Origin: Parcubacteria group bacterium CG1_02_58_44
GTDB taxonomy: Bacteria; Patescibacteriota; Patescibacteriia; SG8-24
Length of the DNA: 35,488 nt
Direction: 5' to 3'
Assembly (NCBI GenBank): GCA_001872545.1
Contig: MNWN01000034.1
Coordinates: 1 to 35,488, forward strand
The notes below the pieces were generated by a model that ran no database searches, was not told the DNA's origin, and was given only the letters and a program-made list of their open reading frames with translations. The translations under genes were made by a program, and so were the position numbers. This document shows positions 1 to 21,269 of this stretch, in pieces. Within the stretch, counting starts at the first letter, position 1. Every line of letters begins with the position of its first letter.

Positions 1-1
1 C

Positions 2-274
2 CAGGGGAAAGAAATGAGCGGCCATGCGCGCTTCACGAAGGAGACGGGGATCAAGGTGTATTTCGCCCATCCGGCATCGCCATGGCAGCGCGGGACGAAC
101 GAGAACACCAACGGGCTCATCCGGCAGTACTTCCCCAGAGGAACGGACTTCAGGACGGTACCGACCCGTGAACTGAAGCGGGTACAGCGCCAGCTCAACG
201 ACAGGCCGAGACAGGTACTCGACTATCTCAAACCGGACGAAGTGTTCAACAGGCTCGTTGCGTTAAAAGTCTGA
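2..274 (+). CDS. IS30-family transposase, C-terminal fragment (cut by window edge)
   Basis: This is the last ~90 residues of a DDE transposase of the IS30 family. The frame is open to the window edge, so the gene starts outside. The stretch HPASPWQRGTNENTNGLIRQ followed by FPRGTDF is the family's C-terminal signature and contains the final catalytic glutamate of the DDE triad (the E in TNEN). The downstream part with NDRPR and LDYLKPDEVF also matches the usual IS30 ending. Whether the element is intact cannot be seen. Its end probably lies just past the stop codon, immediately before the next gene. Confidence 0.9.
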   Translation, partial: QGKEMSGHARFTKETGIKVYFAHPASPWQRGTNENTNGLIRQYFPRGTDFRTVPTRELKRVQRQLNDRPRQVLDYLKPDEVFNRLVALKV

Positions 275-305
275 GACTGCCATCATGAAAAATTCACTGG
301 CAGTC
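275..305. repeat. Perfect 8-bp inverted repeat across a start codon
   Basis: GACTGCCA at 275-282 is the exact reverse complement of TGGCAGTC at 298-305, with a 15-nt spacer holding the ATG at 285. The left arm begins right after the transposase stop codon, so it may belong to the insertion-sequence right end. Alternatively it folds as a hairpin in the mRNA over the start codon of the downstream gene. Neither role is proven by the sequence. Confidence 0.5.
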
Positions 306-1121
306 TTCGAAAATTTCAAGATTCGTCGGCATTATGACGAAAAAACAGAAACTTGGTTTTTTTCGGTGATTGATATTGTCGCCGCACTCACCGAACAGGC
401 AGATTTTAAAAGAGCTCAAAGCTATTGGACGACTCTCAAAAGTCGCTTAAAAAAAGAGGGAAATGAGTCTGTCACATTTTGTGACAGACTGAAATTGCCG
501 TCAGGAGACGGCAAGTTCTACATGACCGATGTGGCAAGTGCAGAAACGATTCTTCGTCTCATCCAATCCGTTCCGTCCAAAAAAGCTGAACCGATCAAAC
601 TTTGGCTTGCCAAAGTCGGTTATGAGCGAATGCAGGAAATGACTGATCCGGAAAAAGCACTGGATCGTTCTCGTGAATATTGGCAGAAACAGGGACGAAG
701 CGAAAAATGGATCCAGCGACGCATGATGGGGCAGGAAACCCGAAATAAACTTACGGATTATTGGTCTGAAAGTGGCGTAGAAAAAGGAGAAGAGTTTGCA
801 GTCTTAACGAACATCATTCATCAGGAATGGAGCGGACTGTCCGTAAAGGATCATAAGAGCTTTAAAGGCCTAAAAGCGCAAAACCTGCGAGATCATATGA
901 GCGAAGAAGAGTTGATTTTTACAGCGCTTGCGGAACTTTCCACGAGAAAGATTGCCGAGAAGGAACAAGCAAAAGGCTTGGAAGAAAACAAGATTCCCGC
1001 GAAAAAAGGTGGAAAAATTGCGAAAGACGCACGCCTTGCCTTGGAACAAAAAACAGGAAAAAGCGTGATAAGTGGTGAAAATTTTCTGCCGAAGAAGAAA
1101 CCCGGCAAAAAACTCACGTGA
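285..1121 (+). CDS. DinD-like protein with Bro-N-type domain
   Basis: A 278-residue protein resembling E. coli DinD (DNA-damage-inducible protein D) and Bro-N/antirepressor-like proteins. The N-terminal ~110 residues (VFENFKIRRHYD, FFSVIDIVAAL, LWLAKVGYERM) match the Bro-N DNA-binding domain as found in this group. The C-terminal half (EEFAVLTNIIHQEWSGL, LKAQNLRDHMS, AKDARLALEQKTGKSV) matches the DinD tail. The last ~15 residues are lysine-rich. The precise biochemical role of DinD-like proteins in restriction loci is not settled; E. coli DinD is known as a RecA modulator. It sits 10 nt before a type III Res gene, and such proteins are often found inside restriction-modification loci. No SD is visible; the insertion sequence upstream may have separated it from its promoter and methylase partner. 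Confidence 0.85.
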   Translation: MKNSLAVFENFKIRRHYDEKTETWFFSVIDIVAALTEQADFKRAQSYWTTLKSRLKKEGNESVTFCDRLKLPSGDGKFYMTDVASAETILRLIQSVPSKKAEPIKLWLAKVGYERMQEMTDPEKALDRSREYWQKQGRSEKWIQRRMMGQETRNKLTDYWSESGVEKGEEFAVLTNIIHQEWSGLSVKDHKSFKGLKAQNLRDHMSEEELIFTALAELSTRKIAEKEQAKGLEENKIPAKKGGKIAKDARLALEQKTGKSVISGENFLPKKKPGKKLT

Positions 1122-1131
1122 GTCTTTAGCT

Positions 1132-3807: not shown

Positions 3808-3850
3808 CTGATGGGTTAAGAAATGAAAGTTTAGTTCTTTAAAGACAAAA

Positions 3851-3890
3851 AGGCCGTCAGGTGCGTGCTGCATCCGACGGTCTTTGTTTT
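3851..3890. terminator. Hairpin terminator, probably bidirectional
   Basis: AGGCCGTC at 3851-3858 pairs with GACGGTCT at 3876-3883 (one G-U pair), followed by TTGTTTT on the plus strand and preceded by an A-rich run that serves as a T-tract on the minus strand. It lies between two convergent genes. Confidence 0.75.
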
Positions 3891-3935
3891 AGTCGAATGA
3901 TAAACCAGACGGGGCGATGTTAGCCACTTCTCTGA

Positions 3936-4412
3936 CTACATGGAACACTGTCCGACGCTTTTTAGGCGTCGATCGGCGATGATTTCAAGTCCATATTCGC
4001 AGTTCTTTATGATTTTCGTGGGGTAGCATTGACCTGACATTGGTTCTAGACACTCAAACTCCTTCTTCTCCCAATCGAAGGAACACCCATCAATCGAAGC
4101 AGATGAGTCTTTTTTCGCCATAAGGGAACGTAAGTTAAAGATGTTTCCTTCGTCGAAGGATATACATTTGCCTAGACAGTCGTCTGAAGTCTGACAAACC
4201 TGATTCGCGTCTGGATAGATAACCGAACACCTATAGAAGCAGCCAGCGATTCCACAGCTAGTGTCGACCATCTTGCCTTTTCGTAGATTGCATCGCCAGC
4301 TTACTTCCAGATTCAGACCGGAAACAGGCCAGATGAAAATATATATCGCTGTACCTAGTAGGATTAGGACTAAAGTGAGGATACCGATCCACATCTTTTT
4401 TAGGTTGGTCAT
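3936..4412 (-). CDS. Cysteine-rich membrane-anchored protein of unknown function
   Basis: A 158-residue protein not assigned to a family. Residues ~8-29 form one hydrophobic membrane segment after a short positive start (MTNLKKMW), so the remainder is probably outside the cell. The exported part carries twelve cysteines, including the cluster CQTSDDCLGKC, which suggests a disulfide-stabilised fold rather than a metal site, though either is possible. It is convergent with the Res gene and shares its terminator. No SD precedes the ATG. Composition is intermediate between the AT-rich left edge and the GC-rich body of the window. Confidence 0.7.
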   Translation of the reverse strand: MTNLKKMWIGILTLVLILLGTAIYIFIWPVSGLNLEVSWRCNLRKGKMVDTSCGIAGCFYRCSVIYPDANQVCQTSDDCLGKCISFDEGNIFNLRSLMAKKDSSASIDGCSFDWEKKEFECLEPMSGQCYPTKIIKNCEYGLEIIADRRLKSVGQCSM

Positions 4413-4475
4413 ATCGGATAACGGTTCAGAATTGTTAATTTGACTGACGTTTTTGCGAACGGTTTCGGTTTTCCG

Positions 4476-5021
4476 CTACATCAAGTACTTCCGAAGCTCT
4501 CGTCGGCGGTCGCGGTGGTCGGGTATGGTCCTGGCGACCAGCTTCCAGAAGCGGACCGAGTGGTTCATCTCGCCCAGGTGGCACAGCTCGTGGGCTATGA
4601 TGTACTCGGCCAGGTGCGGCGGCAGGTGGATCAGCTTGTAGTTGAAGTTGAGGTTACGTTTGGACGAACAGCTGCCCCAGCGTCCGTACAGGTTTTTGAT
4701 CGAGACGCGGCCGTAGGTGAAGCCGTAGGCGGAGTTGAGCCGCCGGAGCGTATCGTGGACCGTCTTGCGGACGGTTTCGCGGTGACGGAGGTAGTCGCGT
4801 CGTCCGCCGGGCAGGTAGGCGCAGTCGGCCGCCTTCTTCCTCTTGGCCAGCTTCTGTCGGATCCAGTCGCCGTATTTCTCGACGAAACGGACGATCGTCC
4901 GGACCGAAGCGGCCGGTGGGGCGGTGACCACGACCCGGGCGTCCGGATAGACGGTCGCCCTCAGCCGTTTGGCGCGGACCGAACGGCGTATCGTGTAGGT
5001 TATGTCGCTTGTTTCGGGCAT
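4476..5021 (-). CDS. YgjP-like (M48-type) zinc metallopeptidase domain protein
   Basis: A 181-residue protein with the YgjP/DUF45 metallopeptidase signature: HELCH at residues 144-148 followed by H154 in MNHSVRFW, giving the three zinc ligands and the catalytic glutamate E145. Upstream, NLYGRWGSCSSKRNL is the conserved block that precedes the active site in this family, and the N-terminus (IRRSVRAKRLRATV) is the typical start. Length agrees with short family members. The frame extends to an earlier ATG at 5093, but those residues do not resemble the family, so 5021 is chosen. Function is presumed proteolysis in the cytoplasm; substrates of the family are not known. Confidence 0.85.
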   Translation of the reverse strand: MPETSDITYTIRRSVRAKRLRATVYPDARVVVTAPPAASVRTIVRFVEKYGDWIRQKLAKRKKAADCAYLPGGRRDYLRHRETVRKTVHDTLRRLNSAYGFTYGRVSIKNLYGRWGSCSSKRNLNFNYKLIHLPPHLAEYIIAHELCHLGEMNHSVRFWKLVARTIPDHRDRRRELRKYLM

Positions 5022-5085
5022 GAGCTCAGGATAGCAGAACGGCTGCGGTCTGTGGGGCGATCCGTTGCGGATATGCAGTCGGCGA

Positions 5086-5114
5086 TTGCCCATCCGTCGA
5101 TTGGACTGTACTCT
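5086..5114 (+). promoter_or_regulatory. Possible promoter of the copper operon
   Basis: TTGCCC at 5086-5091 and TACTCT at 5109-5114 are 17 nt apart, 20 nt before the ATG at 5135. The -35 match is modest. Confidence 0.4.
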
Positions 5115-5134
5115 GAAAGCAGAGACAGCTTCTT

Positions 5135-5503
5135 ATGAAGAAAATGCTTTACCTAATCCTGATTCCGGCAATGCTGGCCTTTGGCCTGGTATTTAGCCTG
5201 GGCGCGAGCGGTTACGGGTCGAACGGCAGTCATTACGGTCAGGGGATCATGATGCCATGCCTTGGTTCGGACTGTGGCAACCTTCTCCAGAAGGTAACCT
5301 GCTCGGCTCATTGCCTGACATCCGGTCTGCTGCCCACGGCCGGTCTGACGGACATCTTGACGGTGCTGCCGTACGTTTTCGCCGTGATGGCTTTCGCAAC
5401 GGTGGTGGTCGGATCGTTAGTATCTTTCCGTCCGCGGCTGCTTGCAGTGCCAGCATCGCCGTCGTCTACTCAGAGCGCCAGAACTATCGTGAAAAGGGAG
5501 TGA
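5135..5503 (+). CDS. Small two-segment membrane protein ahead of the copper genes
   Basis: A 122-residue protein without a recognised family. It has an N-terminal hydrophobic segment (residues ~4-24), a short probably external loop holding four cysteines and a methionine pair (IMMPCLGSDC, VTCSAHC), and a second membrane segment (~73-97) followed by a basic tail. Two Cys pairs with Met and His between membrane segments could bind copper, and the next two genes are copper handling genes on the same strand 46 nt downstream. That role is inferred from position and composition only. Confidence 0.65.
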   Translation: MKKMLYLILIPAMLAFGLVFSLGASGYGSNGSHYGQGIMMPCLGSDCGNLLQKVTCSAHCLTSGLLPTAGLTDILTVLPYVFAVMAFATVVVGSLVSFRPRLLAVPASPSSTQSARTIVKRE

Positions 5504-5549
5504 CCTGTAGGCGGAAACCATCTCCGTTCTAATTTCAGTCACTCCTTTT
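5492..5549 (+). promoter_or_regulatory. Hairpin between the small membrane gene and the HMA fusion gene
   Basis: AAAAGGGAGTGAC at 5492-5504 pairs with GTCACTCCTTTT at 5538-5549 with one bulged G. The 3' arm ends in TTTT directly at the ATG of the next gene, and the 5' arm overlaps the previous stop codon. A GGAG-type purine run lies only in the 5' arm. It could act as an attenuator/terminator or as a cover over the downstream start. Confidence 0.55.
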
Positions 5550-6899
5550 ATGTCCAAGAAAATAGTCTTTCGTGTCGAGGGGACCACCTGCGCCAGCTGT
5601 GAGGTCCTGCTCGAGCGAGCCTTCAGAAAATTGCCGGGCGTGTCCGAGGCTGACGCCTCGAACCGAACCGGTCTGGTCAGGTTGACCGTCAAAGACGACG
5701 AAATACCTTCCGTGTCCGACTTGGAACGTGCGGCTAACGATTCAAAATATCATTTTTCCGTCGATGACGGACGCCGCAGCTCCGTATTCCGGCGCATCGA
5801 CTGGTTGCGGGGAGTAACGGTTTTCGCCCTGGCCTTCTCGCTGTACCTGGTCTTCTTCAAGTCCGGCATTCTGCCGACCGGCGCATCGCTCGACTCATCG
5901 GCCGGTCTGGCCGCGGTGTTCTTTGTCGGTCTAGTGGCCTCCTTTTCGTCCTGCTCGGCCGTGGTCGGCGGTCTGGTAGCTGCGGTGGCCGCTTCTGCAC
6001 CCAGAGGTCAGTCGCTGATGGAGCGTTTCAAACCGCATCTGATCTTCAATGTCGGAAGAATCGTCGGTTTCGCCGTCTTGGGCGGTGCGGTCGGTGGTTT
6101 GGGAAACATGATCGGTCTGTCGACCGGACTGAACGGACTGTTCTTGCTGGTCGTGTCCGCGATAATGATCGGAGTCGGTTTCGGTCTGTCCGGCGTCTTT
6201 GCCGGAGGATCGGTCTTCGGCCTGTCGAAGCGCATTTCGCGTTTCATGGAACGGCGGGCCGGCAAGGGTCAGGCCTGGACCGTCATGGGCCTGGGTGCAC
6301 TGACCTTCTTCCTGCCGTGCGGCTTCACTCAGTCGATGCAGCTGCTGGCCGCATCCTCGGGTTCGGTCCTCGGCGGAGCGGTCATCATGTCGGTCTTCTC
6401 CCTGGGCACCGCACCGGCCCTTCTGGGACTGGGTCTGGCTGCCGGTTCGGCCGCCGGTCGCATCAGGAAATATCTGAGCGTGGGCATCGGTATCTTTGTG
6501 GTAGCGGTCGGCTTCTCCAATTTCGCCGGTGCGGCCACCTTGCTCAACAGCGGCTCATCCGAGGTGCCGGTCGAGACGGCAGGGGTCAAGGCACCGGTCG
6601 CGCACATCGAGAACGGCGAGCAGGTGATCCAGATGGAGGTTACCTCGACGCTCGAGTACGCGCCCGACACGCTCTACGTTCAGGTGGGCACGCCGGTCAG
6701 GTGGGATATCTACGGCAGCGACCGCATGGGCTGCGCCAGCTCTTTGGTCCTGCGCGAATTCGGCGTTCGGACTTCGCTACGTCCGGGTTTCAACTCGGTC
6801 CGCTTCGTGCCCAGCCGTCCGGGCACCTTTCGCTTTACCTGTTCGATGGGCATGACCCGCGGGACCATGATAGTGCTGCCTAAGGAGAGTGGTCGTTAA
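5550..6899 (+). CDS. HMA domain - TauE/DsbD-like membrane protein - cupredoxin fusion
   Basis: A 449-residue protein with three parts. Residues 1-70 are a heavy-metal-associated domain with the metal-binding CASC motif (C14, C17). Residues ~85-325 are a polytopic membrane region resembling the sulfite-exporter TauE/SafE or DsbD-like family, with conserved FLPCGFTQSMQL. The C-terminal ~100 residues are a cupredoxin-like domain after a membrane exit, with GCASSLV and FTCSMGMTRG carrying candidate Cys/Met copper ligands. Known relatives of this architecture accompany copper ATPases. A reasonable reading is that the HMA domain takes Cu(I) on the inside and the cupredoxin handles copper outside, with CopA encoded 15 nt downstream. 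Transport by this protein itself is not shown. No SD precedes the start; a hairpin does. Confidence 0.85.
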   Translation: MSKKIVFRVEGTTCASCEVLLERAFRKLPGVSEADASNRTGLVRLTVKDDEIPSVSDLERAANDSKYHFSVDDGRRSSVFRRIDWLRGVTVFALAFSLYLVFFKSGILPTGASLDSSAGLAAVFFVGLVASFSSCSAVVGGLVAAVAASAPRGQSLMERFKPHLIFNVGRIVGFAVLGGAVGGLGNMIGLSTGLNGLFLLVVSAIMIGVGFGLSGVFAGGSVFGLSKRISRFMERRAGKGQAWTVMGLGALTFFLPCGFTQSMQLLAASSGSVLGGAVIMSVFSLGTAPALLGLGLAAGSAAGRIRKYLSVGIGIFVVAVGFSNFAGAATLLNSGSSEVPVETAGVKAPVAHIENGEQVIQMEVTSTLEYAPDTLYVQVGTPVRWDIYGSDRMGCASSLVLREFGVRTSLRPGFNSVRFVPSRPGTFRFTCSMGMTRGTMIVLPKESGR

Positions 6900-6914
6900 C
6901 GGATTTCCTCGATT

Positions 6915-9089
<2,175 letters not shown>

Positions 9090-9117
9090 TTCAGTGTTGT
9101 TGTATCCTGAGGTCCGG

Positions 9118-9140
9118 CCGACTAAGATTAAGTCGGTTTC
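9118..9140 (+). terminator. Weak hairpin terminator after the copper ATPase gene
   Basis: CCGACT at 9118-9123 pairs with AGTCGG at 9131-9136 around a 7-nt loop, followed by TTTC. The T-run is short, so termination may be partial. Confidence 0.4.
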
Positions 9141-9158
9141 ATTCCCTGTCTTAAAGCC

Positions 9159-10484
9159 ATGAGCAAGATGAGTGTTCGGACTAGCTGGTTGGTGGCGGCC
9201 GCCGTTTTGCTGACGGTCATGGCAATCAGCTCCGGTTTGCTGTGGTTGGTCCATAGAATGGAGGAAGCGTCGGAGGATCGGTTCGGGTCGGCTACTCCTG
9301 TCCTGGTGCCCAGTCCGGACGGCGGGTTGGTTGAGGAGGCAGCCGTGGCGGTTCCGGCCACGGAGCAGGTCGGCACGGACGGCGCCCCAACCTACGGTCC
9401 GGAGGTGCCGCCTCCGCCGCCGGTCTCGATTTCCGCCCAGAACTCGCAGGGACTGCGGCGGGTGGAGTTCAGTCCGCCGATCGGCGACGTCTTCCGGCTG
9501 GACTACGATCCGATCACCGACACCCTGCTCCTGGCCGTGGTCGAGACGGACGGCAGCGGATCGATCTGGCGGCTGTCGAACGACGAGACGGTCGAGCGGG
9601 TACTAATGGGCGGCGAACGGACGAACGAGATCTTCCTCGGGTCGGACAGCCGCGGCACGGTCTATGCCGGATTCGCCGGACCGGGCACGCTCTATCGCAG
9701 CGCGGATCGCGGTGTCACCTGGCAGCAGGTGGCCTCCGGCATCGACGGAACCTTCTGGGGACTGACCGACGACGGGAACGGGACGCTCTGGGGTTCGCTG
9801 CATTCCTACAACTCGGCGCTTCTCTACCGCAGTACGGACGACGGGCTGACCTGGCAGGTCTGGCGCGACTTTCAGCGGATGTTCCCCGAGTACGCCGTCA
9901 CTTATCGCGAGGGCGACGGCCGGTTCAAACTGCGTCATCTGCACGACGTGGCCTACGTCGACGGACAGCTGTTCGTGGGAGTGGGGGACGTGGCCCGCTT
10001 TACGGTCAAGTCCGACGACGGCGGGCTGACCTGGCGGCAGGTCTGGAGCGAAGGTTTCACCGCCCATGTCCAGGTTCCCGGCAACGGCCTGCTGCTGGGC
10101 CCGGACCGTCTGCAGTCGCAGGGCCTGGCGCGATACGACTTCGGCACTGACCGGACCGAGGAGGTCTGGAGTCCGATTCCCTTCGGCTGGGCCGGCTTCA
10201 CCTACAGCCTGATGCGGTTCGACGGAGTCTACTATGCGGCCTTCCACAACGAGGCCAACGAGGTCGACTCGTTCTCCGGCCGGAGCGGCGTAGTGGTCTC
10301 GCGCGACGGGTTCAGCTGGTATCCGTTCATGGAGATCGATCCGCTGACCAACTGGGCCAGGACCGACATCTTTCTGGCGCCGCGGCGCGACTGGACCGGC
10401 TGGATCACCCTGAACGGAGCGCTCTACATCTTCGAGTCGCCGATCGGTCGGTGGTTCGACGTGCATCGGGCCTTCGGCGGATAG
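9159..10484 (+). CDS. Membrane-anchored or secreted Asp-box (BNR) beta-propeller protein
   Basis: A 441-residue protein with an N-terminal membrane segment or signal anchor (residues ~10-31), a ~65-residue low-complexity linker rich in Pro, Glu and Val (PEVPPPPPVS), and a C-terminal domain of Asp-box repeats: YRSADRGVTW, YRSTDDGLTW, KSDDGGLTW and VVSRDGFSW. Asp-box repeats occur in beta-propeller proteins such as sialidases, but sialidase catalytic residues are not evident, so this is better seen as an extracellular propeller of unknown ligand. It sits between two P-type ATPase genes on the same strand, without obvious functional link. Confidence 0.75.
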   Translation: MSKMSVRTSWLVAAAVLLTVMAISSGLLWLVHRMEEASEDRFGSATPVLVPSPDGGLVEEAAVAVPATEQVGTDGAPTYGPEVPPPPPVSISAQNSQGLRRVEFSPPIGDVFRLDYDPITDTLLLAVVETDGSGSIWRLSNDETVERVLMGGERTNEIFLGSDSRGTVYAGFAGPGTLYRSADRGVTWQQVASGIDGTFWGLTDDGNGTLWGSLHSYNSALLYRSTDDGLTWQVWRDFQRMFPEYAVTYREGDGRFKLRHLHDVAYVDGQLFVGVGDVARFTVKSDDGGLTWRQVWSEGFTAHVQVPGNGLLLGPDRLQSQGLARYDFGTDRTEEVWSPIPFGWAGFTYSLMRFDGVYYAAFHNEANEVDSFSGRSGVVVSRDGFSWYPFMEIDPLTNWARTDIFLAPRRDWTGWITLNGALYIFESPIGRWFDVHRAFGG

Positions 10485-10540
10485 AGGACCGCGTTTTGGA
10501 TAGGGTCATTTAGGGGTTAAGGGCTTTTTAGATAAAGACA

Positions 10541-13108
10541 ATGAGTATAGAGACATCCTCAGACCGGTCGTTTGGTGACGTTCGCGACTACCGACAGGCG
10601 GCGGTTTCCGAGACCAAGGACCTGTTGGCGGGATTGAAGTCCGGTAGTGGCGGCCTGTCGTCCGAGGAGCGACGTCATAGGCTGGCCGACTGCGGACTGA
10701 ACGAGACTACGGTCCGACAAACGACGGCCTGGGGTATCCTGCTGCGCCAGTTTCGTTCGCCGTTCGTGTACCTGTTGGCCGGAGCTGTGGCAGTGGCGCT
10801 GTATGCCGGAGAGTACGTCGATGCCGGACTGATCGCAGTCTTTGTCCTGATCAACACTGCACTCAGTTTCTACCAGGAGTATCGGGCCGAGCAGGCCGTA
10901 CGTCTCCTTCGCGGGTACTGGCGCTATGACGTCACCGTCCTGGTCGACGGCCAGCCGACTTCGGTCGGTTCGGAGCGGGTGGTGCCGGGCGACGTGCTGC
11001 GCCTGGCGGCCGGCGACCGGATTCCGGCCGACGTGCGTTTTATGTCCGCCGACAGCGTCACTGTGGACGAGTCGATGCTGACCGGCGAGTCGGTCCACGT
11101 CGAAAAGTCGTGCCGGACTGCGTCCGTCGAGCCGCAGGACTACTTCGATGCGGGCAACGTCGGCTTCGCCGGAACCTCGCTCCTGTCCGGCGAGGCCTTA
11201 GCGGTCGTGTTCGCGACTGGGCGGCATTCTTCGCTCGGCCTGATCGTCGGGTTGGCCGGACGGTCCGCATCTTCGGGCGTCTTCGAGCGGGAGATCGGCT
11301 CGTTCAGCCGTTTCATACTTAAGATGGTGGGAGTGACGCTCCTGGTGATCTTTCTGTTGAACGTCGTCCTCAGGGGTTGGGGAAATCTCGACCAGATGCT
11401 GCTGTTCTTCATCGCTCTGACTATCGGGGTGGTGCCGGAGGCCCTGCCGGTAGTCATGACCGTGACCCATACGCGAGCCGCGCTGCGTCTGGCCGCCAAG
11501 AAAGTCATCGTCAAGCGGCTGTCGGCAGTGGACGATCTGGGCAGCGTGGACGTGCTTTGCATCGACAAGACCGGGACCGTGACCAGGAACGAGCTGGAGG
11601 TGTCGGTCATTATGGCCGACGATCCGGAACGGTGCGTGATCCTGAGTCTGGTCGGATCTCCGGCTGCGGAAGGCTGTCGCTCGGTTGGCAACTCGTTTGA
11701 CCGGGCGCTGCGGAGCTTTGCCGGCCAGAGAGTGGCGGGGGAGGCGGCTCGTTACCGTCAGGTCGCCGAGCTTCCATTTGATCCCGATCGACGTCGCGGC
11801 AGCGTGCTGGTGGAGGATCCTGACGGCGGACGTCGTCTGGTGGTTCGCGGTTCGCCCGACGAAGTGCTGGAGTTGTGTGGTCGGGTCGGCGAGCCGATCG
11901 AGCTGGGTCGCTGGCTTGAGCGCGAGGGTCTGGCCGGACGTCGGGTTTTGGTCGTGGCCGAGAGGGCGATGTCCTCCGGTTGCGAGACGGTTAGCGTAGA
12001 GGATGAGACCGGTCTGGAGTTCGTCGGTGCACTGTCGTTCGAGGATCCGCTGAAGGACGGGGCGGCCGCAGCCATACATAAAGCTGGTCAGATGAGGATC
12101 CAGATCAAGATGCTGACCGGCGACGCCCGGGAGGTGGCCGGTGCAGTGGCTGAACAGTTGGGATTGGTAACCGATCCGTCCGAGGTTATCACCGGTCACG
12201 AGTTCGACGCGCTCGATGCCGGGGGACAGGTCGAGGCAGTCGGCCGTTTTGTGGTTTTTGCCCGCGTCAATCCGGAGCAGAAGTTTCGCATCATATCCCT
12301 ATTGCAGCAGGCCGGACGGTCGGTCGGCTTTTTGGGGGAGGGCTTCAACGACGTGCCGGCCCTGCGTCTGGCCGACGTAGGCATAGCGGTGGAGAACGCC
12401 GCCGACGTGGCCAAGGACGCCGCTGACATAATCCTGGGCGATGCCAGCCTGTCGGCGATCGTGGACGGCGCGGAGATCGGACGCCGGAACTTCGCCAACG
12501 TCATCAAGTACCTGACCGTCACATTGGCCGCAAACTTTGGCAACTTCTACTCGGTGGCGATCGCTTCGCTCTTGGTGCCGTTCCTGCCCATGCTGCCGGT
12601 GCAGATCCTGCTGCTGAACCTGCTGACCGACGCACCGATGATTACGGTGGCGGCCGATGCGGCCCATCCGTCGGAGCTCAGGCGGCCCAACCACTACGAC
12701 GCCCGTCAGGTCATCCTGATGGCGACTGTGCTGGGGGTGGTGAGCAGTGCCTTCGACTTCCTGACCTTCGGCGTCTTTCACGGTCTGGGCGCTGAGCCAT
12801 TGCGGACACTTTGGTTCATGGAGAGTGCTCTGACCGAGATCTTACTCATCTTCTCCGTCCGCACAGCCGGACCGTTCTATCGCGGCCCGCGGATACCGCC
12901 GTCGGTGAGCTGGATCATGGGGGTGATGGCCGTAGTCTGTCTGGTCCTGCCGTATACTGGTTGGGGGCACAGGCTTTTTGGATTCGTCTCGCCTCATCCG
13001 TGGCAGCTGGCTGCGGTCCTGGCTATCGTCGCGGTCTATTTCTGCCTGACTGAACTGGTTAAGCTGCGCTTTTTCGGTCGTAAAAGGGCTTATTCCGGTG
13101 ACAGATAG
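10541..13108 (+). CDS. P-type cation ATPase, closest in style to Mg2+ (MgtA) type
   Basis: An 855-residue P-type ATPase. The N-terminal cation-ATPase domain (LSSEERRHRLADCGLNE), actuator TGES, membrane PEALPVVMT, phosphorylation motif DKTGT with D342, and LTGD are all present. The C-terminal membrane region (NFGNFYSV, VPFLPMLPVQILLLNLL) resembles magnesium-translocating ATPases more than calcium or sodium pumps; the substrate is inferred only. One departure is the hinge motif, which reads GEGFND (599-604) instead of the usual GDGxND. The whole frame is intact, so it is unlikely to be a decayed gene. It starts 56 nt after the beta-propeller gene; no clear SD is present. Confidence 0.88.
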   Translation: MSIETSSDRSFGDVRDYRQAAVSETKDLLAGLKSGSGGLSSEERRHRLADCGLNETTVRQTTAWGILLRQFRSPFVYLLAGAVAVALYAGEYVDAGLIAVFVLINTALSFYQEYRAEQAVRLLRGYWRYDVTVLVDGQPTSVGSERVVPGDVLRLAAGDRIPADVRFMSADSVTVDESMLTGESVHVEKSCRTASVEPQDYFDAGNVGFAGTSLLSGEALAVVFATGRHSSLGLIVGLAGRSASSGVFEREIGSFSRFILKMVGVTLLVIFLLNVVLRGWGNLDQMLLFFIALTIGVVPEALPVVMTVTHTRAALRLAAKKVIVKRLSAVDDLGSVDVLCIDKTGTVTRNELEVSVIMADDPERCVILSLVGSPAAEGCRSVGNSFDRALRSFAGQRVAGEAARYRQVAELPFDPDRRRGSVLVEDPDGGRRLVVRGSPDEVLELCGRVGEPIELGRWLEREGLAGRRVLVVAERAMSSGCETVSVEDETGLEFVGALSFEDPLKDGAAAAIHKAGQMRIQIKMLTGDAREVAGAVAEQLGLVTDPSEVITGHEFDALDAGGQVEAVGRFVVFARVNPEQKFRIISLLQQAGRSVGFLGEGFNDVPALRLADVGIAVENAADVAKDAADIILGDASLSAIVDGAEIGRRNFANVIKYLTVTLAANFGNFYSVAIASLLVPFLPMLPVQILLLNLLTDAPMITVAADAAHPSELRRPNHYDARQVILMATVLGVVSSAFDFLTFGVFHGLGAEPLRTLWFMESALTEILLIFSVRTAGPFYRGPRIPPSVSWIMGVMAVVCLVLPYTGWGHRLFGFVSPHPWQLAAVLAIVAVYFCLTELVKLRFFGRKRAYSGDR

Positions 13109-13189: not shown

Positions 13190-13389
13190 CGTACCCGCAA
13201 CAGTGGAGTACCGGCCGCTTCTTCTCAGAAAAAGATATGAAACTGTCCGATGAACCCATAAGTATGTGACGGCCCCGGAAGTGAGAATCCGGGGTCGTCG
13301 TGTGTTTGGATGGGCAAAAACGGAACGAGTCTTGATCATTTTCCAGAAAAGTGCCAATCTTCAGCTGCTCTTTAAAGAAAGGTGGGAAG
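13190..13389 (+). promoter_or_regulatory. Structured ~200-nt leader or small RNA
   Basis: This region follows a consensus promoter and precedes a gene with an SD. GTAC at each end of 13191-13211 can form a small hairpin. GACGGCCCCGGA (13268-13279) and TCCGGGGTCGTC (13288-13299) form a 12-bp stem with one G-U pair and an 8-nt loop, followed by GTGTGTTT. GGCCG at 13213-13217 can instead pair with CGGCC at 13270-13274, which would break the large stem. A 10-codon reading frame (ATG at 13237, TGA at 13267) ends at the stem base. It does not match any riboswitch or housekeeping RNA that I recognise. Confidence 0.45.
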
Positions 13390-13928: not shown

Positions 13929-13953
13929 GCCCATCGGTTAGGTGGGCTTTTTT
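13929..13953 (+). terminator. Rho-independent terminator
   Basis: GCCCATC at 13929-13935 pairs with GGTGGGC at 13941-13947 around GGTTA, followed by TTTTTT. Confidence 0.85.
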
Positions 13954-14013: not shown

Positions 14014-14045
14014 TTCGGATCAGTTCTTTATCAGAGGTGGAGGAA

Positions 14046-15206
14046 ATGTCGGAGAAAGCAGAAGAAGTCGTCTCACCGCCGAGGTTGGTCGTAAGTGTCG
14101 ACATTTTCGGTAGGGTGACGGTCGAACAGCCCTCACACGATCCGTATGCCGGTTTGGTCGGCTGTCTAGTTCAGGGGTTGCCGGAAGTCATGCAGAAGAC
14201 GTTACTGCAGACCGTGCCGCACTTGGTCGCCGCAGCCGGAATTCGGGATCTGGCACTGGGAAAACCGGTCTCGCCGGACGAGTCGGATCGCCGCCGGCTG
14301 GGACTGTGGGGTTTCGCCCTGCGGGCCCACGGTCTGCATCTGGCCAGTTGCATACGGGCCGGACTGATGGGCGACGACGAGGCCGAAAGGTCGGCTTATC
14401 TCGGTTGGGCCGAGGACCTGATGCGGTGCGGTCAGGCCGTAGTCTCGGTCTTCCTGTCCGGTGCGGAATTCGCAAGTTTTGCGCATCTAGTTCCTAACTG
14501 GAGTGAGCTGACAAAAAAGGCCTCGAAAGGTGCCCGGGAACTGGCGTTTGCCGTTGCGGGTCGGAAGTTTCCGTATTGTCTTCCGTCGTTCGATGTTCGC
14601 TGCCTCGGGTATGGTTGGCTGAAGCCCTTTGGTTATTTCGGGGCTGCCCATGACCCGGTTCTGGACCACGTATTTTCTGAGCAGGGAATTCGACGTTTGA
14701 CCCACAGTTTTGGCATTCCGGCCGTAGTCGGACCGATGGCCAGACTGAACACCTTGAAAGGTCGCCATCGGCGTCTTGATCCTACCTTTCCGTCCAATCC
14801 GTTTTCGCTGCTGGGTAAAGAGATGCTGGAGTCGACAATCCTTGTCGTAGCTATCGGGGCGACGCTTGGGTCGTGCTCGACTGAGGTAGACGATGCGACT
14901 GTAGCTCCGAACTTGATAGCCGTTGGCGGCATGAGGTTCAGAAGCTGGGTTGAGGCGCCGCGTGGCATCCTCTGCCATCAGGTCACGACAGATAGGGAAG
15001 GTTGTCTGGTTGAGGGTCGGGTACTGCTGCCGAGCTGGCAGAACCTGTGGCTGCTGGAACGTGCGGCGACGGAGGTCGTTTTGCAGATGAGGGTCGAGGG
15101 CCGGACACGACCGGAAATGGAAGCGACGCTGACCGATCTTGCTAGATTTTACAATCCCTGTGTTGACCAGGACGGCGACTTCGTCGAGTTCCGTTGGATG
15201 GAATGA
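14046..15206 (+). CDS. NiFe hydrogenase large-subunit homologue lacking nickel ligands
   Basis: A 386-residue protein that aligns by eye along its whole length with the active large subunit encoded at 19974-21269. Shared blocks: VSPDESDRRRLGLWGFALRA with HGLHL against PSPQTMDLRHLTMYGLNIRD with HALHL; VVGPMARLNTL against MVGALARLNLA; WVEAPRGILCHQ against VVEAPRGTLYHK; PSWQNLWLLER against PTGQNQINIER; RFYNPCVDQDGDF against RAYDPCMSCATHF. The N-terminal nickel motif (RICGTC in the active protein) is replaced by KTLLQT around residues 51-56, and in the C-terminal motif only C372 remains, with Q375 and D378 at the positions of the second Cys and the His. It cannot carry a normal NiFe site. An intact frame, its own promoter and a good SD argue that it is expressed and selected, perhaps as a structural, regulatory or assembly partner. 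The ATG at 14046 is preferred over a GTG at 14037 that lies inside the SD. Confidence 0.8.
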   Translation: MSEKAEEVVSPPRLVVSVDIFGRVTVEQPSHDPYAGLVGCLVQGLPEVMQKTLLQTVPHLVAAAGIRDLALGKPVSPDESDRRRLGLWGFALRAHGLHLASCIRAGLMGDDEAERSAYLGWAEDLMRCGQAVVSVFLSGAEFASFAHLVPNWSELTKKASKGARELAFAVAGRKFPYCLPSFDVRCLGYGWLKPFGYFGAAHDPVLDHVFSEQGIRRLTHSFGIPAVVGPMARLNTLKGRHRRLDPTFPSNPFSLLGKEMLESTILVVAIGATLGSCSTEVDDATVAPNLIAVGGMRFRSWVEAPRGILCHQVTTDREGCLVEGRVLLPSWQNLWLLERAATEVVLQMRVEGRTRPEMEATLTDLARFYNPCVDQDGDFVEFRWME

Positions 15207-15234: not shown

Positions 15235-15262
15235 GCCCCCGCTGGTCGGGGGCCTTTTGTTT
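15235..15262 (+). terminator. Rho-independent terminator
   Basis: GCCCCCG at 15235-15241 pairs with CGGGGGC at 15247-15253, followed by CTTTTGTTTG. Its T-tract overlaps the -35 box of the next promoter. Confidence 0.85.
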
Positions 15263-15285
15263 GTTCCTCGGTCATGGGCTATAGT
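15257..15285 (+). promoter_or_regulatory. Leaderless-type promoter
   Basis: TTGTTT at 15257-15262, 17-nt spacer, TATAGT at 15280-15285, then 9 nt to the ATG at 15295. Transcription would start at or within a base or two of the start codon. Confidence 0.7.
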
Positions 15286-15294
15286 GCGAGAACT

Positions 15295-16023
15295 ATGGAC
15301 GGAATACTTCGCTGCAGCCGCTACGCCTTTGGGCCGAACCGCCTGCATTACTGCGGGCCGGATGCCAATCGTGAGCTGCTGGCCTACATCGGGGAAGGGG
15401 AGGCGGACTTCGGCCTGCGGGCCATGCTGTCCGCCTTCAAGACTCTGGCGCCGTACTTGAGGCTGATCGCGCAGGCGAACGGCATTGCCGACATGTTCGA
15501 CGACCGTGTAGTTGAGGCCTACTGGCTAGGCAACGAGCTGCTCGACGGCGTGGACAGGCAGCGGTTCTATCGGCATCTGGAGGACGGCTTGGGCCTGCGG
15601 CGGAAGTTGGGTACCGGCTTTTCCTCGGTTTCCGACCGGATCGGATTGGGCGCAGTGCCGCATCATTCGTTTCATGTGCTGAGCGTCTGGCGGCGGACTG
15701 GTCAGGCCGACATCTTCCATACGCTCGACAGTCTGGACTCCTGCCGGATCGCACCGGGCGAAGTCCTGTCCGTGCATGGTCCCAAGGTGACCGTCGAGGT
15801 CGAACCGCTTGCAACCGATGGCCGATCCGTCTGGCTGGGGTCGTCCGAACTGCGGACCGTGCTGCGCCCGTTCGAGTCGCGCGAGGATATGGACGAGCTG
15901 TCTGCCGGTCAGATCGTGGCCCTGCACTGGGGCGTGCCCTGTGAGGTCATCACTCCGGAACAGGCGGATCGGCTGAGGAGATATACGGCACGGCATCTGG
16001 CTCTGGCCGTCCTGCCGCAGTGA
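15295..16023 (+). CDS. Conserved unknown protein (possibly DUF6390) next to hydrogenase genes
   Basis: A 242-residue soluble protein. The opening ILRCSRYAFGPNRLHYCGPD and the later block VVEAYWLGNELLDGV resemble what I remember of the DUF6390 family, but this was not checked and the name is tentative. Residues ~100-150 contain several histidines (VPHHSFHVLSVW) and the C-terminal third (VALHWGVPCEVITPEQ) is small-domain-like. The frame extends upstream to 15139, but those codons lie within the previous gene and the terminator; the ATG at 15295 is placed exactly for a leaderless transcript. It follows the hydrogenase-like pseudoenzyme gene, so a role tied to hydrogenase is an inference from position. 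Confidence 0.75.
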   Translation: MDGILRCSRYAFGPNRLHYCGPDANRELLAYIGEGEADFGLRAMLSAFKTLAPYLRLIAQANGIADMFDDRVVEAYWLGNELLDGVDRQRFYRHLEDGLGLRRKLGTGFSSVSDRIGLGAVPHHSFHVLSVWRRTGQADIFHTLDSLDSCRIAPGEVLSVHGPKVTVEVEPLATDGRSVWLGSSELRTVLRPFESREDMDELSAGQIVALHWGVPCEVITPEQADRLRRYTARHLALAVLPQ

Positions 16024-17550: not shown

Positions 17551-17865
17551 ATGGCTAAGAAATCGAAAGAAAATGGGGGACTGGGGCGGTTTCGTCCAAC
17601 AGTCAGCGAGACCGACGACGTGCAGGTGACGCGGTTCCTAGGCCTGTGCAAGAGCTGCGGCCAATGCATCGAGAAGTGTCCGGTCAGGGCGATCAGCTGG
17701 GACGAGAGCGAGCTGGGACTGTTGGGGGAGCCGGCGATCAGGATCGACACCGCCGTCTGCATCGGCTGCGAGCTGTGCGAACAGATATGTCCGGACGCGG
17801 CGATCGAGATTCGCAACAAGAAAACCGAACGTCTGCTTAAGGAACGGGCGGCCAAGACCAAGTAA
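17551..17865 (+). CDS. 2x[4Fe-4S] ferredoxin of the hydrogenase operon
   Basis: A 104-residue bacterial-type ferredoxin with two complete cluster motifs: CKSCGQCIEKCP (C33, C36, C39, C43) and CIGCELCEQICP (C70, C73, C76, C80). The N-terminal 30 residues and the lysine-rich tail are extensions beyond the fold. It is the first gene of an operon ending with the catalytic subunits of a NiFe hydrogenase, so it probably passes electrons between the hydrogenase and the FAD oxidoreductase, either as a stable subunit or as a free carrier. Confidence 0.9.
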   Translation: MAKKSKENGGLGRFRPTVSETDDVQVTRFLGLCKSCGQCIEKCPVRAISWDESELGLLGEPAIRIDTAVCIGCELCEQICPDAAIEIRNKKTERLLKERAAKTK

Positions 17866-17899: not shown

Positions 17900-18181
17900 A
17901 TGCCAGAAGAGAGAAAGATCGCCAGCATCAAGATCGACCGCGACAGCTGCATCGGCGCTGCGCCCTGCGTGGCGGCGGCCGGCAGCGTTTTCGAGCTCGA
18001 CACCGAGCAGAAGGCCGTGCTGAAGAGGAAGGGCGGCGAACGGGTCTCGGACCAGACCGACAAGGTTGACCTCGAGGACGGGGTGATCTCCGACGACACC
18101 CTGCTTGCCGCGGCCCAGTCCTGTCCGGTCCGGGCCATCTATCTTTACGACGAGGCCGGCAACCAGATCTTTCCGGCCTAG
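17900..18181 (+). CDS. Single-cluster ferredoxin with three cysteine ligands
   Basis: A 93-residue ferredoxin. The first motif reads CIGAAPC (C17, C23), with alanine at residue 20 where a [4Fe-4S] ferredoxin has its second Cys; the last ligand is C75 in AAQSCPVRAI. Three Cys normally hold a [3Fe-4S] cluster or a [4Fe-4S] cluster with a non-Cys ligand. The region between (GSVFELDTEQKAVL) and the IYLYDEAG tail fit the family of one-cluster bacterial ferredoxins. It is the second of two ferredoxin genes in the hydrogenase operon, and probably offers a cluster of different potential from the first. Confidence 0.88.
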   Translation: MPEERKIASIKIDRDSCIGAAPCVAAAGSVFELDTEQKAVLKRKGGERVSDQTDKVDLEDGVISDDTLLAAAQSCPVRAIYLYDEAGNQIFPA

Positions 18182-18197
18182 TTAGGACGCCTTACAA

Positions 18198-19442
18198 ATG
18201 GAAAGGTACGACTACCTGATCATCGGCGGCGGTATCGCGGGGACGACCGCCGCCGAGACGTTAAAGAGGGAGGAACCTGCCGCGCGAGTGGCCATCATTT
18301 CGGACGAACCCTGTCCGCTGTATTCGCGCATCCTGCTTTCCAAGCCGAACTTTTTTTTGGGCAAGGTGCCGTTCGAGACCATCTGGATGAGGAAGCCGGA
18401 GCGCTACGCCGAGCAGGGCATCGACTTCATGTCCGGCCGACGGGCCGAACGCCTTTCGGTCGGGGATCATGCGGTGACGTTGGATGACGGTACCGAGCTG
18501 GGCTTCGGTCAGCTGCTTCTGGCCACCGGCTGTCCGGCAAGGAAGCTGGACGTGCCTGGGCTGTCCGGCAAGGTCGGCGTCAGCTACATGAAGACGGTGA
18601 ACGACGCCCGTACGGTCATGGCGGAGATCCGTCGGGCTAAACGGGCCGTGGTCGTGGGCGCAGGTTTCGTCAGTTTTGAGATGTGCGACCTGCTGCGGCA
18701 GGCCGGACTGGAGGTGGAGGTAATGGTGCGCGAAACCTATTTCTGGGAGCCGGTTCTGGACCGGACCGCCGGACAGCTCATCGAGCAGTCCCTGACGGAG
18801 GGCGGAGTCCGGGTTCGTCTGAAGTCGGAAGTTGCCGAAGTGCTTGGGAATGATCGTGTCGAGGGCGTCAGGCTGAAGGACGGCACCGAGATCGACTGCG
18901 ACCTGCTGGTGATCGGCATCGGTGTGCAGTTCGACGGCAGTTGGCTGGAGCGGGCCGGGGTGGCAGTTGGCCGCGGCGTCAGGACCGACGAGCATCTGAA
19001 GACTAACCTGGACGGCATCTGGGCGGCCGGCGACGTGGCCGAGCTCGACGATCCGGCTGTCGGAGAGCCATATATCTGTGGTACTTGGCTGGATGCGCAG
19101 GAGCAGGGACGGACCGCCGCACTCAACATGCTCGGTCGGAATCTGTCCTACCGGGCCGTATCTTCATACACTTCGCACGGCTTCGGCCTGAGTCTGGCCT
19201 TTGTCGGACGGATCAGGTGCGAAAGCAGACGGCTTTTTCCTCGTGGTCGGGTAGAGTCCGGCTCGTACGGCTGCATTGTCGTTCGGAATGGACGATCGGT
19301 CGTCGGCGGCTTCCTGATCAACCGCGGCAGCGACTTGGCTCCGATAAAGGCCGCCATTGAGGGCGAAGTAGACATCTCCGGCCAGATGGCGCTGCTGTCC
19401 GATCCGGAATCCGACCTGACGACGCTCCTGCCCAAAAAATAA
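18198..19442 (+). CDS. FAD-dependent pyridine nucleotide-disulfide-type oxidoreductase
   Basis: A 414-residue flavoprotein with the FAD-binding GGGIAG near residues 10-15, the NAD(P)-binding VVVGAGFVSFE near 151-161, LLLATG (106-111), and the second FAD motif TNLDGIWAAGDVAE. It belongs to the rubredoxin/ferredoxin reductase-like branch without a redox-active CxxC disulfide. In this operon it most likely exchanges electrons between NAD(P)H and the ferredoxins and hydrogenase. The nucleotide preference (NAD or NADP) cannot be decided by eye. It starts 16 nt after the three-Cys ferredoxin and ends 9 nt before the small subunit gene. Confidence 0.88.
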   Translation: MERYDYLIIGGGIAGTTAAETLKREEPAARVAIISDEPCPLYSRILLSKPNFFLGKVPFETIWMRKPERYAEQGIDFMSGRRAERLSVGDHAVTLDDGTELGFGQLLLATGCPARKLDVPGLSGKVGVSYMKTVNDARTVMAEIRRAKRAVVVGAGFVSFEMCDLLRQAGLEVEVMVRETYFWEPVLDRTAGQLIEQSLTEGGVRVRLKSEVAEVLGNDRVEGVRLKDGTEIDCDLLVIGIGVQFDGSWLERAGVAVGRGVRTDEHLKTNLDGIWAAGDVAELDDPAVGEPYICGTWLDAQEQGRTAALNMLGRNLSYRAVSSYTSHGFGLSLAFVGRIRCESRRLFPRGRVESGSYGCIVVRNGRSVVGGFLINRGSDLAPIKAAIEGEVDISGQMALLSDPESDLTTLLPKK

Positions 19443-19451
19443 ACGACACCT

Positions 19452-19961
19452 ATGAACGAACAAGACAAGCCCAGAAAGGTACGCATCGGCTGGTTCAGCT
19501 TCGCCTGCTGCGAGGACAACACCATCGTCATGACCGAACTGCTGAACGACCGTTGGCAGGAGTGGCGCGAACTGTTCGACTTTCGGCATGCCCGCGTACT
19601 GCAGACCAATAATGTCCTCGACCAGATGGACATCGCCTTCATCGAGGGGGCGGTGGCCGGCGAGCCCCAGGCCCAGGAAATCCGCGAGATCCGGAAGTTG
19701 GCGACGCTGGTAGTCGCGATCGGTTCGTGTGCCGTGACCGGCATGCCGTCGGCCCAGCGCAACCTGTTCAGCGACGAGCAGAAGCAGGACGTCGGGTTCC
19801 TGGTCGAGCGCTTCGGTCACCTGGATCAGGTGCTCAAGCTGAGCGACGTGATCAAGGTCGACGCCGAGGTGCCCGGCTGTTCGATGGATCCGCAGCGCTT
19901 TCTCGACACCGTCGACTCGGCCGTGGCCCAGGTAAGGGCCGGCTGGGCATCCGAAAAGTAA
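19452..19961 (+). CDS. NiFe hydrogenase small subunit, minimal one-cluster form
   Basis: A 169-residue protein homologous to the proximal-cluster domain of NiFe hydrogenase small subunits. Candidate cluster ligands are C19 and C20 in SFACCEDN, C93 in AIGSCAVTGMPSAQRN and C143 in VPGCSMDPQRF. The usual first motif is CxxC; adjacent cysteines here mean that one ligand may be shifted. There is no C-terminal domain for medial and distal clusters and no signal peptide, so the enzyme is cytoplasmic and relies on separate ferredoxins. NNVLDQMDIAFIEGAVAGE is the conserved stretch of the fold. The group (3-like or other) would need a phylogeny. Confidence 0.9.
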   Translation: MNEQDKPRKVRIGWFSFACCEDNTIVMTELLNDRWQEWRELFDFRHARVLQTNNVLDQMDIAFIEGAVAGEPQAQEIREIRKLATLVVAIGSCAVTGMPSAQRNLFSDEQKQDVGFLVERFGHLDQVLKLSDVIKVDAEVPGCSMDPQRFLDTVDSAVAQVRAGWASEK

Positions 19962-19973
19962 CGCCTGTAGCCT

Positions 19974-21269
19974 ATGCATTCGCAAGACATATCGCTCGAC
20001 GCCATCTGCAAGGTCGAGGGCCACGCCAAACTCGATTTGCGCATCCGCGACGGTAAGGTGGAACACGTTCACTATCAGATTCAGGAGTACAAGCGCTTCT
20101 TTTCCAAGGCGGTCGAGGGCAAGCCTCTGGCGGCCATTCCGCCGCTGTTGTCGAGGATCTGCGGTACCTGCTCGAACGCCCACGTCATGTGCGCCATCGA
20201 AGCCTGCGAGAACGCGGTCGGCCTGCAGCCGTCGCCGCAGACCATGGACCTCCGTCACCTGACCATGTACGGGCTGAACATCCGCGACCACGCCCTTCAC
20301 CTGTACATCTTCGTCATGCCGGACCTCTACGGCAAGGACAATTTCCTGTCTTTTGACGAGAACGACGAGGAACAGCATCAGCATCTGCATGACTGTTTCG
20401 AGATCAAGGCGGCAGGCAACTACCTGGCCCAGATCGTGGCCGGTCGGTCGGTCCATGCGACCTATCCGACTCTCGGCGGGTTCAATCATCTGCCGTCGAA
20501 GGAGGAGATCGAGGAGGCAATTCGTAAGCTGGAGGCGGCACGTCCGGCGGCCATGCGCTGCATCGCGATTTTTGAACGCTGCGACTGGAGCTTCGACCGT
20601 GACATGGACTATCAGGCGCTGGTGCCGAAGGGCAGCTACTGGTTCCTGGACGGTGACGTGGTCACGAGCCATGGCGAACGGTACGGCGAGAAGCGCTATC
20701 CCGACCTGCTGGAGCATGTGGTGCTGCCGTATTCGACCGCCTCGGCCTATACGCACGAGGGACGGCCGTTCATGGTCGGAGCGCTCGCCCGACTGAATCT
20801 GGCCCAGGAAACGCTGCATCTGCAGACTAGGGAATCGCTGGGTCGGACGCTGGAGCTGTTTCCTTCCACCAACATCTACCGCAACAATCTGGCTCAGGCG
20901 ATCGAACTGCTGCACAGCATCGATCATGCGATCGAACTGCTGCAGGGACGTGAGTTTGCGGTCGAGGCGCCCATCAGGCCGGAGATTCGTGAAGGGGAGG
21001 GGATCGGCGTGGTCGAGGCGCCGCGCGGGACGCTCTACCATAAGATCGTGGTCGGAGAGGATGGGCTAGTGCGGCGGGGCGAGGTCATCGTGCCGACCGG
21101 ACAGAATCAGATCAACATCGAGCGCGACATCGCGGGACTGGTCGACGGACTGCTGCCGGATACCGACCGTCCGACGATCGAGCACGAGATCGAGAAGCTC
21201 ATTCGGGCCTACGATCCTTGCATGAGCTGCGCTACGCACTTTCTGAAAGTCGATTGGGATTTGGTATGA
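19974..21269 (+). CDS. NiFe hydrogenase large (catalytic) subunit
   Basis: A 431-residue catalytic subunit that holds the NiFe(CN)2CO centre. The L1 motif is RICGTCSNAH (C63, C66, H70) and the L2 motif is DPCMSCATH (C416, C419, H422), so all four nickel cysteines are present. The EGHAKL block near residue 15 and EAPRGTLYHK, with PTGQNQ after it, are also conserved. Nine residues (FLKVDWDLV) follow H422, the place where maturation proteases cut, so the tail is short but present; a maturation-protease-like gene lies on the opposite strand at 21783-22154. It follows the small subunit by 12 nt. No hyp genes are in the window. Confidence 0.93.
   Translation: MHSQDISLDAICKVEGHAKLDLRIRDGKVEHVHYQIQEYKRFFSKAVEGKPLAAIPPLLSRICGTCSNAHVMCAIEACENAVGLQPSPQTMDLRHLTMYGLNIRDHALHLYIFVMPDLYGKDNFLSFDENDEEQHQHLHDCFEIKAAGNYLAQIVAGRSVHATYPTLGGFNHLPSKEEIEEAIRKLEAARPAAMRCIAIFERCDWSFDRDMDYQALVPKGSYWFLDGDVVTSHGERYGEKRYPDLLEHVVLPYSTASAYTHEGRPFMVGALARLNLAQETLHLQTRESLGRTLELFPSTNIYRNNLAQAIELLHSIDHAIELLQGREFAVEAPIRPEIREGEGIGVVEAPRGTLYHKIVVGEDGLVRRGEVIVPTGQNQINIERDIAGLVDGLLPDTDRPTIEHEIEKLIRAYDPCMSCATHFLKVDWDLV

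Follow-up and report, generated by a model that had tools for sequence, protein, structure and literature searches.

A non-catalytic paralogue of the hyd2-type NiFe hydrogenase large subunit encoded in a hydrogenase cluster of Candidatus Uhrbacteria

What can be the use of a protein built like the large subunit (LSU) of a NiFe hydrogenase that has lost the metal site of the enzyme and is encoded only a few kilobases from an intact LSU? This question is raised by a gene of a Candidatus Uhrbacteria (Patescibacteria) genome, here called P0001, that lies in a hydrogenase cluster (Table 1) of the window, by which we mean the whole stretch of DNA analysed (35,488 nucleotides of contig MNWN01000034.1). 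The active LSU of this cluster (P0002), its truncated small subunit (no other PF01058 gene was found in the genome) and its PF07992 oxidoreductase match hyd2, a subclade within the group 3b hydrogenases that is specific to CPR (Jaffe et al., 2020; PMC7304191). Truncated small subunits with a mean of 164 aa and the presence of the PF07992 family near hyd2 have both been described (PMC7304191). The small protein encoded upstream of P0001, which starts with MICLNGPIVEVDY, resembles HypC by eye; this candidate was rejected, as hhalign gave a probability of only 0.2%.

Table 1. Features of the hydrogenase cluster in the window, with the metal-less LSU of a Woesearchaeota contig (L141)
Feature	Position	Strand	Remarks
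Small protein upstream of P0001	13390..13884	+	No known family; evolves fast; also found in G009 and G005
Terminator-like stem-loop and T run	13929..13953	+	Ends the upstream gene, setting P0001 apart
Shine-Dalgarno-like AGAGGTGG / AGAGGTGGAGG	14034..14045	+	5' of the P0001 ATG; read from the sequence
P0001, non-catalytic NiFe hydrogenase LSU paralogue	14046..15206	+	386 aa
Terminator-like stem-loop CCCCCGCTGGTCGGGGG	15235..15263	+	3' of P0001; conserved in G009, a genome of the same genus
DUF6390 protein	15295..16023	+	HypC-like C-terminal domain, by profile and fold
2x[4Fe-4S] ferredoxin-like protein	17551..17865	+	Hydrogenase cluster
Small ferredoxin-like protein	17900..18181	+	Hydrogenase cluster; weak matches; conserved in G009 and G005
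FAD/NAD(P) pyridine nucleotide-disulphide oxidoreductase	18198..19442	+	PF07992
Truncated hydrogenase small subunit	19452..19961	+	PF01058; 169 aa
P0002, intact hyd2-type LSU	19974..21269	+	RICGTC ... DPCMSCATH
Metal-less LSU, Woesearchaeota	L141:3100-4332	-	Operon with 4256-6514 (-), beside 6637-10507 (+)

P0001 is a paralogue of the CPR hyd2 (group 3b-like) LSU, full-length, intact and non-catalytic. A sequence-only reading of this DNA had already proposed an LSU paralogue without a nickel site, and sequence, profile, fold and tree all support the proposal. In blastp, P0001 matches P0002 with 71.6 bits (E 4e-18; 26% identity over 368 aa), and a profile built only from LSUs scores 57.9 bits on P0001, the best of 2000 shuffles reaching 3.5. 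The sequence blocks shared with P0002 that had been listed earlier are all present, and the high-probability profile match that had been anticipated was obtained with hhalign against 13 LSUs (98.5%, E 1.9e-15), although it covers residues 57-386 and thus falls short of full length: it is strong in the last 85 residues and moderate in 57-240, while residues 1-56, L1 included, have no confident alignment to LSUs. P0001 matches no Pfam family, PF00374 included (no match at E<=0.1, against 3.7e-25 for P0002), and in NCBIfam it matches only the sulfhydrogenase alpha subunit, weakly (7.7e-6). The AlphaFold2 model of P0001 is of moderate confidence (pLDDT 70.5, pTM 0.74), being well-defined roughly from 10 to 140 and from 300 to 386 and poor in the middle region (below 50). 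As anticipated, a fold search with this model brings up LSU structures, with HyhL of the HyhL-HypA complex as the best PDB match (E 4e-10, TM about 0.65) and F420-reducing and soluble hydrogenase large subunits as weaker ones. Because an LSU alignment was the input of the model, this is supporting rather than independent evidence.

The metal ligands are lost, with one exception. Both cysteines of L1 are gone, C63 and C66 of the LSU aligning with L53 and Q55 of P0001, and in L2 only C416 is kept (as C372), C419 and H422 being replaced by Q375 and D378, exactly as had been read from the sequence. Thus, a single ligand (C372) is left of the four cysteines that make up L1 RxCGxC and L2 DPCxxC, and H2 catalysis by P0001 itself is excluded on known four-cysteine chemistry. 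Among the 43 positions that are LSU-invariant (the same residue in >=95% of 39 LSUs), 19 are kept in P0001, including those of EAPRG.L, P..N and R.Y.PC, and those lost include, besides E15 of the KVEGH motif, both cysteines of L1 and the second one of L2. In hydrogenases, the CN ligands of the Fe are contacted by the Arg of APRG and by the Thr/Ser of the VPT block; these residues are kept in P0001 as R306 and S330.

The P0001 frame runs from the ATG to the TGA without interruption, although at this composition a frame under no constraint should contain about 14 stops (P(no stop) ~8e-7). Together with the structured subset of LSU-invariant residues that is kept, this bears out the earlier claim that the intact frame argues for selection. 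The coding score of the frame is the best of six, yet it is 0.09 compared with 0.25-0.30 in the neighbours, and GC3 is 0.64 compared with 0.76-0.85 in most of them. Expression signals of its own had also been attributed to the gene. The Shine-Dalgarno-like sequence stands, whereas a promoter scan directly 5' of 14046 gave nothing above the scan threshold and the 3' terminator, real as it is, is not specific to P0001, because it is also found where P0001 is missing. This is the case in G009, a genome of the same genus (Candidatus Uhrbacteria bacterium RIFOXYC2_FULL_47_19, contig MGFG01000032) with a syntenic cluster in which the LSU is 93% and DUF6390 88% identical. There, the CCCCCGCTGGTCGGGGG terminator and the DUF6390 start region come immediately after the upstream gene, whereas in the window they stand behind P0001. 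The two genomes differ here by the clean gain or loss of one gene.

Orthologues of P0001, which had been expected to exist and to co-occur with DUF6390 and the hydrogenase, were found neither in the Patescibacteria genomes sampled (10 from the family, 381 from the class and 380 from the phylum, about 760 in all; the class and phylum samples overlap) nor in two GTDB contig scans, plasmids or viral contigs. No sampled hyd2 locus other than the source carries P0001, and DUF6390 and hyd2 hydrogenases are widespread without it, also within the genus. P0001 has so far been found in one Uhrbacteria species only, and since G009 keeps the rest of the cluster, the gene is dispensable and was probably acquired horizontally. 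As to the remainder of the window, positions 10541-13108 and 13205-13236 are a site of gene turnover; the P-type ATPase gene located at 10541-13108 has no DNA match at the same place in G009, which carries about 0.9 kb of its own there. Positions 1-4000 are of low GC (0.43-0.48, compared with about 0.6 elsewhere), encode a BRO-N protein and a type III restriction-like helicase, and are probably a mobile or defence insertion.

With such a distribution, P0001 might be a transient recent acquisition that has no role in the hydrogenase, either a passenger or a gene in early decay, located in the cluster by chance at a site of gene turnover. The absence from all sampled relatives and the atypical GC3 and codon score fit this explanation, as do the presence in the same stretch of an ATPase gene that G009 lacks at that place and the very long branch of P0001 in the tree (7.2 changes per site). 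However, the frame is intact and preceded by a Shine-Dalgarno-like sequence despite the extreme divergence, the residues that are kept are structured LSU-invariant ones, and it is unlikely that an LSU-descended gene lands by chance in a hydrogenase cluster, even if a homologous gene could have come along with hydrogenase DNA. On balance, we regard a gene without hydrogenase role as unlikely, though one to be reckoned with.

The tree of 79 sequences also bears on the descent of P0001. In it, P0001 groups with hyd2 and archaeal LSUs (96/100), and HupK/HoxV, which are treated below, are placed with group 1-type LSUs. When P0001 is forced onto the Uhrbacteria LSUs the tree is no worse than the free one or even better, and on the tree P0001 could therefore be a recent tandem duplicate of the genome's own LSU that has decayed. 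This origin is implausible on rates, because the two congeneric LSUs share 93% identity whereas P0001 shares 26% with P0002. Had the duplication taken place within the genus, P0001 must have undergone extreme acceleration, and a decayed copy sits badly with the intact frame. A recent duplicate of P0002 is hence very improbable. The composition and the indel are best accommodated by an old paralogue that would have been received from an unsampled lineage; P0001 was presumably either acquired horizontally or duplicated anciently and mostly lost.

An additional element of this locus is the DUF6390 protein encoded next to P0001. Its C-terminal domain matches HypC in hhalign (82%, E 1.1e-5), with sub-threshold HypC matches at the same place in several genomes. 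In the model of the protein (pLDDT 90.3), the four best Foldseek matches are HypC chains, with TM normalised to HypC of up to 0.8 and weak E-values (0.016 and up) because the shared part is a small domain only. C150 and H211 are invariant, and in the alignment they appear to be the counterparts of the Fe-binding Cys and His of HypC. The N-terminal domain is helical and contains an invariant CG and a conserved HHSFHV motif. DUF6390 is also found inside hyp clusters of Sulfobacillus and Mycobacterium plasmids (L038:14974-15747; L039:14956-15711), and it is probably the family described as fam002, which is common to hyd1 and hyd2 loci and shows HypC homology in some members (PMC7304191). HypC, HypD, HypE and HypF were not detected in the source genome (a 95% complete assembly; HypA and HypB were outside the search). 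HypD occurs in 3 of the 76 Patescibacteria genomes with an LSU or DUF6390, all three without DUF6390, and additionally in G273, which does have DUF6390. DUF6390 itself is present in 34 of the 51 LSU-bearing genomes of the class. This makes up the puzzle around P0001: patescibacterial hyd2 enzymes keep the four cysteines, HypD is present in few of the hydrogenase-bearing genomes searched, and DUF6390 is common alongside. With a HypC-like domain in DUF6390 and HypC/D/E/F undetected, hyd2 maturation appears unconventional, as an enzyme with all four ligands seems to do without the classical Fe(CN)2CO machinery. No paper on DUF6390 or on a Hyp-free CPR hydrogenase was found in the literature searched.

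The reading that we prefer for P0001, with a probability of roughly 40%, is that of a non-catalytic accessory protein that would rely on its LSU fold for docking to LSU partners and work in the manner of HupK/HoxV. HupK and HoxV both resemble LSUs. HoxV is inactive as an enzyme, contains Fe(CN)2CO without nickel and associates with apo-HoxG, and HupK interacts with HypC as well as with HupF (PMC12134894, PMC3534401). By analogy, P0001, keeping the LSU fold, would be handled by the partners of the real LSU, candidates for which are the HypC-like DUF6390 protein next door and the single small subunit, and it might act in the assembly, storage or protection of the hydrogenase. Homology and fold, with HyhL-HypA as the top PDB match, point in this direction, as does the loss of the metal ligands from a protein that yet keeps the CN-contact residues. 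The LSU-invariant positions kept in P0001 and in HupK/HoxV overlap (13/20, Fisher p 0.011), as one would expect of proteins that are handled by partners of the same kinds; this is modest evidence for a like constraint. Moreover, HupF/HoxL, the partner of HupK/HoxV, is a HypC-type protein (PMC12134894, PMC3534401), as the neighbour of P0001 is HypC-like, and the intact frame, the coding signal and the single-gene indel in otherwise conserved synteny also speak for this reading. Nevertheless, G009 keeps both the LSU and DUF6390 without P0001, all other sampled hyd2 loci lack it, a terminator stands between P0001 and DUF6390, the L1 cysteine invariant in HupK/HoxV is absent, and the fold model, built on an LSU alignment, is of moderate quality. 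In addition, the Fe(CN)2CO pathway served by HoxV may not exist here, and a literal HoxV role of P0001 is weakened because the known supplier machinery of HoxV is missing. The apparent absence of the classical machinery in turn makes a scaffold-like protein more interesting. A separately evolved HoxV-like scaffold that together with DUF6390 would provide Hyp-independent building or delivery of the active site for Patescibacteria hyd2 is a more specific idea, which we consider improbable.

Alternatively, P0001 could be a subunit, comparable to NuoD: joined to the truncated small subunit or to the real LSU, it would form a module that transfers electrons, regulates or serves as a decoy. The LSU fold of the model is compatible with this. 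As the genome has one small subunit, P0001 would have to share it. A parallel comes from the collected loci, in which the LSU-like proteins that are complete and lack the ligands are, besides P0001, HoxV and one Woesearchaeota protein (other ligand-flagged entries are truncated proteins or ones that depart only from the strict pattern used in the search). The Woesearchaeota contig (DPANNHV_H2.bin.54) holds a pair of divergent operons for group 3b-like hydrogenases, each of four genes, and one of the pair is intact. In the LSU of the other, the L1 cysteines are gone (RIDSSIS) and L2 is wholly absent, and this metal-less LSU has small, gamma and beta subunits of its own. It is thus, like P0001, a group 3b-like LSU without the cysteines located few kb from an intact one, and it is apparently undescribed. 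Unlike P0001, it belongs to a complete four-gene operon, and it branches with other archaeal LSUs, independently of P0001. On a further Woesearchaeota contig, two LSU genes with intact ligands (L137:6913-8214 and 8984-10252) lie about 0.8 kb apart, and one of them is the nearest relative of the metal-less protein. Against a subunit role, there is next to P0001 neither a small subunit nor an electron-transfer gene that would belong to it. In LSUs, the L1 region faces the proximal cluster of the small subunit, and it is the least conserved part of P0001. As the hydrogenase of the same genus also does without P0001, a subunit role is possible but is given clearly less credit than the accessory role.

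Comparison with known systems places P0001 among several lines of metal-less LSU descendants. NuoD/FpoD and Ehr large subunits are parts of membrane complexes. Like P0001, NuoD/FpoD and the CPR group 4 Ehr large subunits are LSU descendants without metal ligands, while for P0001 there is no NuoD match in NCBIfam and no membrane partner gene among the annotated neighbours. The loss of the cysteines from CPR Ehr proteins (PMC7304191) and, above all, HupK/HoxV (PMC12134894, PMC3534401) are precedents that run counter to the initial impression that no family like P0001 had been described. HupK/HoxV, known from Rhizobium leguminosarum and Cupriavidus necator, share with P0001 the LSU fold without the Ni site in a cytoplasmic protein, a residue loss of the same kind, the location in a hydrogenase cluster, a similar length (386 aa in P0001, 383 aa in HupK/HoxV), and the E-x-x-RG-x-L, PT/PS..N and first L2 Cys elements. 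In five HupK/HoxV sequences, one L1 cysteine (C52 of HoxV) and DPC are invariant. P0001 lacks this cysteine; it reads EAPRGILCH where HupK/HoxV have E-x-ARG-x-L-x-H, and LPSWQNL in place of the APTEWNF block. HupK/HoxV work with HypCD and HupF/HoxL and are encoded with hypABCDEF and hupF/hoxL, whereas P0001 adjoins DUF6390 in a genome in which HypC/D/E/F are undetected. It is accordingly most doubtful that P0001 belongs, as a divergent member, to the HupK/HoxV family proper: the AU test stops short of formally rejecting a joint clade (p 0.08), but this clade costs 20.7 log-likelihood units relative to the free tree, and the match to the HupK/HoxV profile (40%, E 3e-4, 77 columns only) is far below that to hyd2 LSUs. 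The CPR hyd2 LSUs (PMC7304191) are the closest to P0001 by profile, blastp and tree, and a C-terminal ...W ending is common to both; those checked with complete L1 and L2 all keep RICGTC and DPC.SC, whereas P0001 has lost three of the four cysteines. In all, loss of the metal site from hydrogenase LSUs has earlier given rise to NuoD of complex I and to the HupK/HoxV assembly proteins, and P0001 represents a further, apparently independent, loss of this kind in an ultra-small bacterium.
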